A stretch of 5,347 bases of DNA. Origin: an uncultured Clostridia bacterium (GTDB taxonomy: Bacteria > Bacillota_A > Clostridia > Christensenellales > UBA3700). Made by a program: the position numbers and the translations under genes. The notes beneath the pieces are model-generated. The model searched no databases and was not told the DNA's origin. It worked only from the letters and a program-made list of their open reading frames with translations. Positions 2,329 through 5,219 of this stretch are shown here, piece after piece. Location of the stretch: assembly GCA_946545105.1 (NCBI GenBank), contig CAMNMY010000073.1, positions 1-5,347 on the forward strand, read 5' to 3'. Every line of letters begins with the position of its first letter. The first letter of the stretch is position 1.

Positions 2329-3957
2329 ATGAGTGAATTTGAAAAATTTGGAATTAATTCTTTAGTTATAAAAGCTCTTGATGAGCAAAATATTGTTGAA
2401 CCAACAGAGATTCAACAAAAGGTTCTTCCTTTAGCTTTAGGCATTGGTGATGTTGTTGCTAAGGCCCCAACTGGAACAGGAAAGACATTGGGTTTTGCTT
2501 TGCCTATCATTGAAAAGGTTGATAGAGATTCTAATAAAGTTCAAGCATTGATAGTATGCCCAACAAGAGAGTTGGTTATTCAAATATGTGATGTATTCAA
2601 GATGGCTGTTAAGTATTATGAGTCATTTAGAGTAGCAGGATTATATGGTGGACAAAACTTCCAAAGACAATTAATGTTTTTAAGAAAGAAGCCACAAGTT
2701 ATTGTTGGAACACCAGGAAGAATATTAGATCATTTAGATAGAAGAACTCTAAAACTTCAAGAATGCAAAATGTTAGTTTTAGATGAAGGCGACGAAATGT
2801 TCGATATGGGATTTAGAGATGATATTGAAAAGATCATGTCAGCAGTTCCTCAAATTACAACGCAAAAACTTTTATTCTCAGCAACTATCCCAAATGCTAT
2901 TAAAAAGGTAATAGATGAAAAGTTCAATGAGCCAGAATATGTAGAGGCAACAATAGGTGGAGATAATATTCCAGATATTAAACAATACTACACAATGGTT
3001 AAGGATAGCCAAAGAGTAGCAGCCCTTTTACATATTAAAGAATCTAACAAATTTAGAAGATGTATCGTTTTTTGTAACACAAAGCAAAGAGCAGACAAGC
3101 TATATCAAGCGCTAAAGAATGCAAAACAAAACGTTGCTTTGATCCATAGCGATATTAGACAAAACGAAAGAACAAGAATAATGAAGGCGTTCAAAGAAGG
3201 CCAAACAGAGATCCTTGTAGCAACCGATGTTGCTGCTCGTGGTATTGATGTTGATGATATAAAAGTTATCTTCAACTTTGACCCACCATCAGATTCAGAT
3301 TTCTATATTCACAGAATTGGAAGAACAGCGCGTGCAAATAAAAATGGTGCAGCATATACAATTATTGATTCATCACAAGTCGGATTCGTACAAGCTTATC
3401 AAAGCGCTACAAATAATGCGCTTGAGTATATTGAGATGCCAGAGTTAAAACAAAACTTTACGCTTCCTCATGATGGCTCAAACAAGTTCCATAAGATTGA
3501 AAGACAAGGCCTAACAAAGAGATTCTTCTTAAACGTAGGAAAGAAAGACTTATTAGATAAAGATACTTTGGCTAAAATGGTATGTTCAAAATGTAATGTT
3601 CAATTACATGAGATTGTAGATATTAAGGTATCTGAGACATATTCTTTTGTAGAATTAACAAATGATAAAGCACAAAACATCTCAAGACTTATGGGTATGC
3701 AACTTGGAAAGAGAAAGTTGGTTATTGAAGAAGCCAAAGAAGAAGAACCAAAGGCTAATCGCGATAAGAAGAGTTCATTTAAAGGAAAGAAAGAATTCTC
3801 TAAAGATAAAAAAGACTTCAAAAAGAAAGAATTTAAAGATGATAATAAAAAGAAGGGCAAGCCTTCAAAATCTAAAAAGTTCTCAAACACTGATTATTCA
3901 AAACCAAGACAATATGAAAAGACAGTGAAGAGATTTGATAAATCCAAAAAGAAATAA
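2329..3957 (+). CDS. DEAD-box ATP-dependent RNA helicase with DbpA-type RNA-binding domain (CshA/DeaD-like)
   Basis: Predicted cytoplasmic RNA helicase of 542 residues. Such proteins unwind structured RNA in ribosome assembly, mRNA decay or cold adaptation. Motifs in order: Q motif PTEIQQ (25-30), motif I APTGTGKT (46-53), PTRELV (78-83), GG (107-108), TPGR (128-131), motif II DEGD (152-155, in place of DEAD), SAT (184-186), IVFCN (246-250), ATDVAARGID (298-307) and HRIGRTAR (328-335). Residues ~397-468 (KRFFLNVGKKD onward) resemble the DbpA/CsdA C-terminal RRM-like domain that binds structured RNA. The tail ~470-542 is Lys-rich and low in complexity, typical of a disordered RNA-contacting extension. 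I chose ATG 2329: the protein then begins MSEFEKFGI as the family does, whereas the TTG at 2293 lies in the promoter. 24 of 27 arginines are AGA. cshA or deaD are plausible names, but orthology cannot be decided here. Confidence 0.93.
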   Translation: MSEFEKFGINSLVIKALDEQNIVEPTEIQQKVLPLALGIGDVVAKAPTGTGKTLGFALPIIEKVDRDSNKVQALIVCPTRELVIQICDVFKMAVKYYESFRVAGLYGGQNFQRQLMFLRKKPQVIVGTPGRILDHLDRRTLKLQECKMLVLDEGDEMFDMGFRDDIEKIMSAVPQITTQKLLFSATIPNAIKKVIDEKFNEPEYVEATIGGDNIPDIKQYYTMVKDSQRVAALLHIKESNKFRRCIVFCNTKQRADKLYQALKNAKQNVALIHSDIRQNERTRIMKAFKEGQTEILVATDVAARGIDVDDIKVIFNFDPPSDSDFYIHRIGRTARANKNGAAYTIIDSSQVGFVQAYQSATNNALEYIEMPELKQNFTLPHDGSNKFHKIERQGLTKRFFLNVGKKDLLDKDTLAKMVCSKCNVQLHEIVDIKVSETYSFVELTNDKAQNISRLMGMQLGKRKLVIEEAKEEEPKANRDKKSSFKGKKEFSKDKKDFKKKEFKDDNKKKGKPSKSKKFSNTDYSKPRQYEKTVKRFDKSKKK

Positions 3958-4010: not shown

Positions 4011-5057
4011 CTAAATAAAATCTTTAGCGTATAACACGAATTCTTTAAAACGCGGAAGCACAAATTCGAGCTTATCGTAATCTGTTGAAGCGACAAGGCC
4101 TTTTTCAATAAGGCGTTTTCTGTATTGCGAGAAATTTGTTTTAGAAAAGCCACCTGTTGATATAATTTCTTCTTTTTTCCCAGCATTAGATTGAGCTAAT
4201 GCAACAACGAATTTCTTCTCGGTTTTGGTTAAATCGTTCCAAAACTTGTTGTATCCATTATTCCAAAGATATGTGTCGTATTGACTAATAAAATCATCGT
4301 TAAGGGATTGCGCTTTGCTTTCGTAGAAGTAATAGCCTAGTACCTGGTAAGCGAATGCATAACCATTTGTTAATTTCGCCATATTGACGGCTAGTTCTTT
4401 ATTTATATTAAAAATTCGTTGATATTCAAGAGCGATGCTGATTTGGCTTAATGGTTCAAGTTCTATTTTTGGAGCGCGAGTTAAAAATGTCATAGCCTTA
4501 TCATTTATGATTAAGTTAAAATTTTCAATTAGGCCTGTCATTAGCAAATAGAAGTTAAATCCTTTACCAATCATGGTTTGAAAGAAATTTACAAATTTTT
4601 TAAACTCGTGAGTATTTGTAACTTCATCAATGGCTATTAGTATATTCTTAGACTTATTAGACAAACGTTCTAATAATTTCTCAATTATAATCTCTGGATC
4701 AGAAATCGTATTTTGTTGATTTTTTGTTATTGTAACCCCAGGAAGATTTATGCTAATACTCCATCCATCTAATAACTTTGCATCAATAGATTTAGAATAA
4801 AGTTTGTTTGCTATAGACTCCAAAATCTCGCCTTGAGAGTTTACTTCAAGAACAATCCAATTGTCTATCTTGCTTATTGTGGAACATACATTTCTTAAAA
4901 ATACGGTTTTCCCACATCCTCGTATTCCGGTTATATAAAATGTGCGTAATGAATTATCAATAGTAAAAGATTTCAGTATTGTAGCTTCGTGCTCTGCTCG
5001 CGAAATAATGCTTGGAGCAGGCATTCCATACATTAACGTAAATGGGTTGTTTGACAT
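4011..5057 (-). CDS. AAA/STAND-type ATPase with C-terminal winged-helix-like region
   Basis: A 348-residue predicted soluble P-loop ATPase. The N-terminus NPFTLMYGMPAP with a following ISRAEHE is characteristic of a standalone ATP-binding family I recognise from gut Firmicutes. Walker A is GIRGCGKT (44-51), Walker B is ILIAIDEV (139-146), and a sensor-like strand LLMTGLIENF spans 171-180. LTRAPKIELEPLS (192-204) and NGYAFAYQVLGYY (231-243) match the layout of archaeal-ATPase/STAND-like modules. Residues ~275-345 (LTKTEKKFVVAL to LPRFKEFVLY, with FSKTNFSQYRKRLIEKGLV) look like a winged helix-turn-helix, which suggests DNA binding. No signal peptide or membrane segment is seen. The start ATG 5055-5057 has a Shine-Dalgarno 9 nt upstream. 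Only 2 of 10 arginines are AGA (the rest CGN), unlike every neighbour, which points to acquisition. Four direct repeats lie upstream. The ATPase call is firm; the biological role is unknown (regulator, defence or mobile-element function are all possible). Confidence 0.85.
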   Translation of the reverse strand: MSNNPFTLMYGMPAPSIISRAEHEATILKSFTIDNSLRTFYITGIRGCGKTVFLRNVCSTISKIDNWIVLEVNSQGEILESIANKLYSKSIDAKLLDGWSISINLPGVTITKNQQNTISDPEIIIEKLLERLSNKSKNILIAIDEVTNTHEFKKFVNFFQTMIGKGFNFYLLMTGLIENFNLIINDKAMTFLTRAPKIELEPLSQISIALEYQRIFNINKELAVNMAKLTNGYAFAYQVLGYYFYESKAQSLNDDFISQYDTYLWNNGYNKFWNDLTKTEKKFVVALAQSNAGKKEEIISTGGFSKTNFSQYRKRLIEKGLVASTDYDKLEFVLPRFKEFVLYAKDFI

Positions 5058-5066
5058 AAGAACTTT

Positions 5067-5074
5067 CTCCTTTT
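5067..5074 (-). promoter_or_regulatory. Shine-Dalgarno of the ATPase gene
   Basis: The minus strand reads AAAAGGAG, with GGAG ending 9 nt before ATG 5057. It is the only strong Shine-Dalgarno in front of a complete gene in the window. It arises inside repeat copy 1, where an extra G turns the AAAAGAGA of the other copies into AAAAGGAGA, so a repeat-binding factor would also cover the ribosome binding site. Confidence 0.8.
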
Positions 5075-5089
5075 CATTTCTGCAAGAAT

Positions 5090-5118
5090 ATTATATCTCT
5101 TTTCATTTCTTACGTCAA
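5090..5118 (-). promoter_or_regulatory. Proximal ATPase promoter built on repeat copy 2
   Basis: On the minus strand TTGACG (5118-5113, 5 of 6) and TATAAT (5095-5090, 6 of 6) are separated by exactly 17 nt. A complete repeat unit fills the spacer and runs into the -10 box. Transcription should start near 5083, giving a leader of about 26 nt that contains repeat copy 1 and the Shine-Dalgarno. Confidence 0.78.
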
Positions 5119-5127
5119 TTATTTGCA

Positions 5128-5156
5128 TCTATATATCTCTTTTCATTTCTTGCCAA
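5128..5156 (-). promoter_or_regulatory. Possible distal ATPase promoter built on repeat copy 3
   Basis: TTGGCA (5156-5151) and TATAGA (5133-5128) lie 17 nt apart on the minus strand, again with a repeat unit between the boxes. It is weaker than the proximal promoter. Copy 4 also has a poorer version: TTGCTT (5188-5183), 18 nt, TATATC (5164-5159). This could be a tandem promoter series, or a by-product of the TATA at the 3' end of each repeat. Confidence 0.4.
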
Positions 5157-5186
5157 TTGATATATCTCTTTTCATTCGCTTTAAGC

Positions 5187-5219
5187 AAAAAAAAGAGTTG
5201 CTCAAAGTGAACAACTCTT
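5187..5219 (-). terminator. Intrinsic terminator of the aldolase gene
   Basis: On the minus strand an 11-bp stem (5219-5209 with 5203-5193, one G-U pair) closes a 5-nt loop, and a run of eight T (5194-5187) starts at the 3' base of the stem. It begins about 22 nt after the aldolase stop and separates that gene from the ATPase promoter region, so the ATPase is an independent transcription unit. Confidence 0.92.

Follow-up and report, generated by a model that had tools for sequence, protein, structure and literature searches.

Why should a solitary ATPase gene carry an array of direct repeats across its own promoter? The question is raised by a 5,347-nucleotide (nt) stretch of a contig of an uncultured Clostridia bacterium (GenBank CAMNMY010000073.1; the whole stretch is called the window below), on whose minus strand such a gene lies. 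An earlier note, made from the sequence alone, had proposed that the ATPase binds the repeats and controls its own transcription or, alternatively, that the repeats mark a mobile or partition-like module. Our analysis makes it likely that the solitary ATPase assembles on its own array and represses its own gene, and that array and gene are transferred as one unit; self-control and mobility are compatible, not exclusive. A large family annotated as "ATP-binding protein", common in rumen and gut Bacillota and also present in Actinomycetota, thereby gains its first testable property, a phased array in its own control region that is probably read by the winged helix of the protein. We found no description of this array-ATPase pairing in the literature, in a search that most subscription papers and bioRxiv preprints lay outside.

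Coordinates and shuffling bear out the four same-direction repeats described before the lone gene. The core AATGAAAAG occurs four times, always on the minus strand (5168-5176, 5139-5147, 5099-5107 and 5070-5078; offsets 29, 40 and 29 nt), and the longer 19-mer AGAAATGAAAAGAGATATA, with at most 3 mismatches, is present three times in the window against 0.04 expected, a count reached by 0 of 200 shuffles. The gene-proximal fourth copy has just the first 12 nt in common with the 19-mer and continues into the Shine-Dalgarno sequence AAGGAG. The promoter TTGACG-17-TATAAT agrees with the consensus at 11 of 12 bases and has copy 3 within it, while a second promoter-like site agrees at 9 of 12, and shuffles yield on average 1.0 such sites. 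The repeats overlie one good promoter and the Shine-Dalgarno sequence. The significance of the array rests on the 19-mer test; its 8-mer lattice score was matched by 12 of 200 shuffles.

The array is conserved as a trait of the family. Relatives were found by a scan of genome contigs, and the locus counts given here refer to the best 80 of 528 confirmed relatives, which come mostly from metagenome-assembled genomes labelled Bacilli, Lachnospiraceae, other Clostridia and Coriobacteriia (loci and genomes are cited by our L and G numbers). The repeat words differ: the four closest relatives among these 80 carry GAAATGAAA, other Bacilli have direct repeats of TTGCACAAA or ATATACACAAA, and Lachnospiraceae have AGTTATAAAA, ACAGTAAA, AATGATAAA, AGATATAAA and others. 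Repeats upstream of close homologues, on which the earlier proposal depended, are present: the array score exceeds all 20 dinucleotide shuffles in 70 of the 78 loci with 170 nt of upstream sequence, and it reaches at least 5 in 70 of 78 (not wholly the same set), compared with 5 of 378 upstream regions of other open reading frames (ORFs) in the same loci.

A single spacing rule holds across the family despite the differing repeat words. In a non-redundant set of 153 upstream regions, drawn from 166 unique units, coincidences of exact 7-mers peak at lags of 10, 19-20, 29, 39, 48-49, 58, 68, 78 and 88, a pattern already seen in 78 regions, and a lattice step of 9.74 base pairs (bp) was fitted on the first seven centroids. 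Of all coincidences at lags 5-74, 91.5% fall on 15 of the 70 lags; lag 10 is found in 89% of the regions and lag 28-30 in 92%. The lags of the window array (29, 40 and 69) lie at most 1 bp off this lattice. The description as a ~19-nt repeat fits three copies with up to 3 mismatches and not the fourth, and the relatives suggest that the repeat is better read as ~10-bp half-sites on a regular lattice. Relative to the start codon, the first half-site begins at a median distance of 101 nt and the last ends at a median of 16.5 nt, and 69 of 154 units have TTGAC or TTGCC in the 40 nt that precede the first half-site, versus 6.7% of random stretches. Counts of at least three half-sites (100 of 103 units) and at least four (154 of 164) use a lax lattice score and are by themselves no evidence. 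The common 9.74-bp step limits the ways in which an AAA/STAND oligomer could be arranged on the DNA.

Within genomes, good matches to the arrays cluster at the promoters of the ATPase genes. A GAAATGAAAA-type pattern was matched exactly six times in four genomes, and all 6 matches lie, by coordinates, before an ATPase; at up to 2 mismatches the pattern gave 61 matches versus 46 for the reversed control. A TTGCAYAA pair pattern in four further genomes, also at up to 2 mismatches, had 19 of 19 matches before an ATPase and 0 for the control. The expectation that the repeats are not scattered without the ATPase thus stands in these eight genomes for exact and near-exact matches, single weaker ones being scattered. 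Among paralogues of one genome the array words mostly differ, and alike arrays occur in 0 of 57 within-genome pairs (15 genomes) versus 2.3% of random pairs. Two further ideas were tried and set aside. A regulon elsewhere in the genome would call for a second array, which was not seen in the eight genomes, scattered weak sites being possible; and as to selection keeping the arrays private, 0 of 57 versus 2.3% is no clear excess and does not prove avoidance, with genome G602 as an exception.

The encoded protein exceeds the Pfam gathering scores of PF01637 (38.3 bits, cut-off 33.2) and PF13173 (35.6 bits, cut-off 27), and the profile scan gave no other Pfam family above cut-off. Residues G44, R46, G47, G49, K50 and T51 of Walker A and D144 and E145 of Walker B are invariant in 48 aligned sequences, and both motifs are intact in the window ATPase. 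The suspected C-terminal winged helix-turn-helix was recovered in an AlphaFold2 model (mean predicted local distance difference test score, pLDDT, 86), which has helices at residues 278-289, 295-302, 306-318 and 337-347 and strands at 322-326 and 329-332, and in structural alignments with the archaeal Walker-type ATPases PABY2304 (2qen) and SSO1545 (2fna), which share the fold along almost the entire length at just 13-14% identity. We take these two archaeal proteins to belong to PF01637/COG1672, and we know of no function for either.

Array sequence is associated with the predicted recognition helix of this domain. In a set of 91 non-redundant proteins, similarity between arrays is correlated with how similar the proteins are in the ATPase domain (0.401) and in the winged helix (0.408). 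A sliding scan of 57 segments, each corrected for the remaining protein, put residues 301-312 first (partial correlation 0.213), followed by 307-318 (0.177) and then by the wing, 325-336 (0.168); the permutation version again had its maximum at 301-312 (0.192), a value that 1 of 1000 permutations attained when they were free and 28 of 1000 when they were confined to clusters of relatives. The top columns are 311, 316, 190, 310 and 306, two of them (316 and 190) almost invariant. At positions 310-311, Asn-Pro (NP) is paired with AGTAAA-containing half-sites in 11 of 11 cases (for example ACAGTAAA), QN with TTGCA(C/T)A in 4 of 4 (for example GTTGCACAA) and TP with ATGATAAA in 3 of 3; ATGATAAA also accompanies other residues, so that there is no one-to-one relation. 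In a wider set, all 9 units with at least three CAGTAAA have NP, and by this strict count 3 NP units fall outside. An array pattern used alone in nine genomes found one more ATPase, 49% identical to the first copy of its genome and carrying NP; this pattern missed known arrays, and its single match is no test for a regulon. Such natural pairs of array and recognition helix form a set for working out winged-helix specificity. Most likely it is the ATPase's own winged helix that reads the array.

We infer direct binding, an oligomer on the DNA, repression rather than activation and dependence on ATP, in the following way. The C-terminal winged helix of a solitary STAND-like/ATPase_2 protein would bind half-sites of ~10 bp in the promoter of its own gene, and the protomers of an oligomer would fill, one after another, the half-sites of the ~9.74-bp lattice from about the -35 region to the Shine-Dalgarno sequence. 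Lattice and position together suggest that such an ordered oligomer spans promoter and ribosome-binding site. Once assembled, it may shut out RNA polymerase and keep the gene low, with the ATP/ADP state or a bound trigger as the likely switch. Since the array differs from those of the paralogues in most copies, control would be largely in cis. The block of array and ORF has apparently arrived repeatedly at new sites via horizontal transfer and non-homologous insertion. The self-control proposed in the earlier note gains indirect support from the family-wide pairing of array and gene and from the covariation of array and recognition helix.

Several results weigh against this reading. Eight of the 78 loci (L019, L020, L023, L045, L058, L060, L067 and L078) fail against at least one shuffle, some of them, such as L023 and L078, having repeats visible to the eye. 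With one mismatch allowed, just 1 of 6 matches of the GAAATGAAAA-type pattern in the four genomes lies in an array and 5 lie outside arrays. Copies L026 and L227 of genome G602 both have ACAGTAAA half-sites, and copies L030 and L101 of G007 have a GTTATAA core in common. In a held-out prediction of the array (30 units), the recognition helix did no better than overall similarity, the mean motif distance being 0.272 for the recognition helix, 0.256 for the ATPase domain, 0.253 for the rest of the C-terminal domain and 0.357 at random. With the winged helix held constant, the ATPase domain still has a partial correlation of 0.175 with the array; the recognition helix, with the ATPase domain held constant, has one of 0.199. 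Because the ATPase domain correlates nearly as well and the held-out test failed, shared descent explains much of the association; the link of array and helix is supported, but appears to be due in part to descent. Repression, finally, is suggested solely by the overlap of the array with the -10 hexamer and the Shine-Dalgarno sequence.

The proposed self-control on an array can be compared with several known systems. MalT-type STAND regulators and mycobacterial IniR are ATP-dependent oligomerising regulators to which the window ATPase can be likened, and MalT sites are arrays of direct ~10-bp boxes. IniR is reported to have an SSO1545-like ATPase domain and to act at the iniBAC promoter (PMC5760070). 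MalT and IniR have a sensor-type domain and activate other operons, whereas the window ATPase is without such a domain, and well-matching arrays of its type were seen solely at ATPase genes in the eight genomes. Controller (C) proteins of restriction-modification systems and toxin-antitoxin operators provide self-only autoregulation on a mobile module; the present system differs from them in having no recurrent partner gene, in being built on an ATPase instead of a small helix-turn-helix protein, and in its many phased half-sites. Iteron-controlled Rep genes have direct repeats over the initiator's own promoter, autoregulation and winged-helix initiators. The window resembles them in its direct repeats over the own promoter, the winged helix and the proposed autoregulation, and differs in that its ATPase fails the Orc1/Cdc6 profile, in the 1-9 matches per genome among 15 genomes searched and in the 9.74-bp lattice.

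Array and gene travel together, as the alternative of a mobile module had implied, and near-identical blocks are found at unrelated sites. Among the 48 block pairs that are at least 80% identical in nucleotides, some are alike far past the gene on both sides, some downstream only and others on neither side. L137 and its orthologues are 97.6-97.9% identical to L146 over ~1120 bp, from the array to 15-16 nt past the stop codon, in unrelated surroundings. L129 and L130 (93.9%) are homologous from 97 nt before to 40 nt after the ORF, L182 and L200 (95.4%) from 181 nt before to 19 nt after it, with an extra 31-nt match downstream, and L023 and L027 (93.0%) from 141 nt before to 35 nt after it. In these four non-syntenic pair classes, all of at least 93% identity, homology ends 15-40 nt past the stop codon, and the transferred block comprises the array, the ATPase ORF and a short tail, ~1.1-1.3 kb with no other ORF; a transposase or recombinase ORF was not found in the common block. 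Pairs of lower identity that end about at the array and the stop codon are L192/L200, L193/L195 (with a 74% match further upstream), L112/L213, L138/L137 group, L128/L129 and L014/L024, for which decay of non-coding sequence would give the same picture. Array and ATPase have apparently moved between species as one block, to unrelated genomic sites, which poses the problem of how a lone gene without a recombinase of its own can move, and of what selects for it.

In one insertion the empty site could be compared. Three genomes have both flanks of L137 in one piece at 84-86% identity; compared with these empty sites, tens of bp of intergenic DNA are missing at the filled one, a target duplication was not seen, and the array starts directly past the stop codon of the preceding gene. 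The left flank of L146 matches a region that is intact in other genomes, and the junction has a few bases in common with the target. Both insertions look like illegitimate insertion, not classical transposition. A tRNA gene (L137 2923-2994, by Rfam) lies ~390 nt downstream of the inserted ATPase block.

These data can also be read the other way round, with the block as a minimal mobile genetic unit in which the array is one end, the ATPase drives movement by itself or together with a host recombinase, and autoregulation is secondary; TnsC-, IstB- and MuB-like ATPases would be the analogues. The 93-98% identical blocks at unrelated sites in different genomes, with ends near the array and 15-40 nt past the stop codon, favour such a unit, as do the insertion with three empty sites and the patchy presence of the gene (genus of G009, 50 of 79 genomes; genus of G005, 24 of 29; family of G002, 1 of 43). 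Recurrent neighbours, too, are lacking. Clustering of two genes per side at the 80 loci gave at most 4 loci at a single position (a sugar transferase, downstream) and a group of 6 over differing positions, and in Pfam scans of the nearest neighbours (71 of 76 downstream, 65 of 76 upstream), no family occurred in more than 3 of the 71 or 2 of the 65 (the sugar transferase counts 3 there, and 4 if L068 is included). We nevertheless think this account unlikely, given a block without a transposase or other ORF, the replacement of intergenic DNA with no target duplication seen, the short left-junction microhomology in two insertions, which suggests illegitimate recombination, and a fixed promoter geometry of the arrays that movement alone does not need; moreover, several close pairs differ upstream only and have their downstream DNA in common, so that some changes of context are not jumps. 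A related version, in which a recombinase-free mobile unit of ~1.1-1.3 kb has the array as both operator and ATPase assembly platform directing its own insertion or maintenance, we consider rather improbable. The partition-like module of the earlier note gained no support, as a Pfam scan of the window ATPase found no ParA/ParB domain and there is no recurrent neighbour family.

A single-gene defence or conflict system, with a STAND-like sensor held off by the array until infection, would agree with a lone, patchy, mobile and often multi-copy gene, with a fold related to the NLR and Avs5 ATPases, and with a weak PADLOC match (PDC-S01, 27 bits). The best part of that match lies within a portion of the ATPase domain, and a generic ATPase would give the same one; a sensor or effector domain, as in canonical multi-domain STAND proteins, was not found in the 348 residues, which the ATPase domain and winged helix fill, and the neighbours as a group are not defence genes. 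This reading, which seems quite doubtful to us, concerns purpose and could hold alongside autorepression by an ATPase assembled on its array.

It is highly unlikely that an unrelated host protein binds the repeats, or that they work in the 5' leader RNA, with the ATPase as passenger. Arrays of several relatives lie largely past the -35 box, with their last half-site merging into the Shine-Dalgarno sequence, so that part of the array is probably transcribed. The array differs, however, among lineages and among most paralogues of a genome, and could hardly be read by one host protein; the ~9.7-bp lattice would suit duplex DNA better; and the array covaries with the recognition helix of the ATPase. 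Least credible is a replication-initiator-like module, an Orc1/Cdc6-like ATPase with iteron-like sites as a relic or active chromosomal or plasmid replicator, since the window ATPase scores 12.3 bits against a cut-off of 181.3 with the Orc1/Cdc6 model TIGR02928, VIA-align Z ranks the ATPases 2qen and 2fna as its top two structures (with 1w5t at most ~2 units behind, and a Cdc6 put first by Foldseek), and the copies sit beside ordinary genes with no recurrent replication partner.

The features of the window are listed in the table.

Table. Positions of the array, control signals and ATPase features in the window
Feature	Position	Strand	Basis
Array copy 1, 19-mer with 3 mismatches	5161..5179	-	Pattern search
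Array copy 2, exact 19-mer	5132..5150	-	Pattern search
Array copy 3, exact 19-mer, in promoter spacer and -10	5092..5110	-	Pattern search
Array copy 4, AGAAATGAAAAG then GAG, merged with Shine-Dalgarno	5067..5081	-	Direct reading
-35 hexamer TTGACG	5113..5118	-	Promoter scan
-10 hexamer TATAAT, overlaps copy 3	5090..5095	-	Promoter scan
Shine-Dalgarno AAGGAG	5067..5072	-	Direct reading
Lone ATPase gene, 348 residues	4011..5057	-	PF01637 ATPase_2 / PF13173 AAA_14 and C-terminal winged helix
Walker A, residues 44-51, GIRGCGKT	4905..4928	-	Alignment of 48 sequences
Walker B, residues 138-145, ending DE	4623..4646	-	Alignment of 48 sequences
C-terminal winged helix-turn-helix, residues 278-347	4017..4226	-	AlphaFold2 model and fold matches
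Predicted recognition helix, residues 306-318	4104..4142	-	Model; inside the stretch covarying best with array sequence
Terminator-like hairpin of the upstream gene, adjoining the array on the left	5193..5219	-	Scan that also gave the promoter

One locus provides a natural array-less copy. L198 (in G534) and L192 (in G555) are 94% identical in the gene and have the same downstream DNA, yet the upstream region of L198 is without a visible array. Rfam assigned no family in the window, in L198 (including the DNA that replaces the array) or in L146.

Origin from phages or plasmids was considered and rejected. There were 0 matches in 50,697 phage records, and two short patterns gave none in viral contigs; relatives were present in 24 of 72,556 plasmid records, all below 60% identity and the best at 34%. 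Among these distant plasmid homologues, 7-mer lattice repeats are clear in L121, L124 and L126 (reached by 0, 1 and 0 of 100 shuffles, respectively), marginal in L123 (5 of 100) and not above shuffles in L122 (62 of 100) and L125 (35 of 100). L124, on an Arthrobacter plasmid, and L126, on a Lactobacillus crispatus plasmid, encode ATPases of 25% and 29% identity with ~10-bp-spaced repeats directly upstream, and L110 (G012, Parafannyhessea) is a distant ATPase with ~10-bp-spaced upstream repeats by eye and by the lax lattice score. From L124, L126 and L110 it appears that the array may be older than the sampled family. In L121, on plasmid pNP95 of Pseudobutyrivibrio xylanivorans, the ATPase is flanked by O-antigen ligase and glycosyltransferase genes.

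The 15 genomes picked for having the gene contain 1-9 ATPase matches each, fragments included. A scan of 397 genomes of the family of G009 with one protein gave matches in 8 genomes at E 1e-120, too few for insertion pairs. Truncated or broken copies lie near full-length ones (G005:C17:22115-22456, G014:C13:71233-71547, G533:C3:150392-151425 and G554:C28) and are consistent with turnover of a dispensable gene. At L039, L059, L065 and L068 a sugar transferase gene follows the ATPase with a gap of -4 to 7 nt, and eight loci of the genus of G009 (L090, L093, L132-L136 and L139) all have homologous DNA downstream of the ATPase. In the window, the ATPase gene is convergent with a DEAD-box helicase gene (2329-3957), and positions 2-1525 encode the C-terminal part of a BspA-type leucine-rich repeat protein (LRR_5, 188.6 bits).
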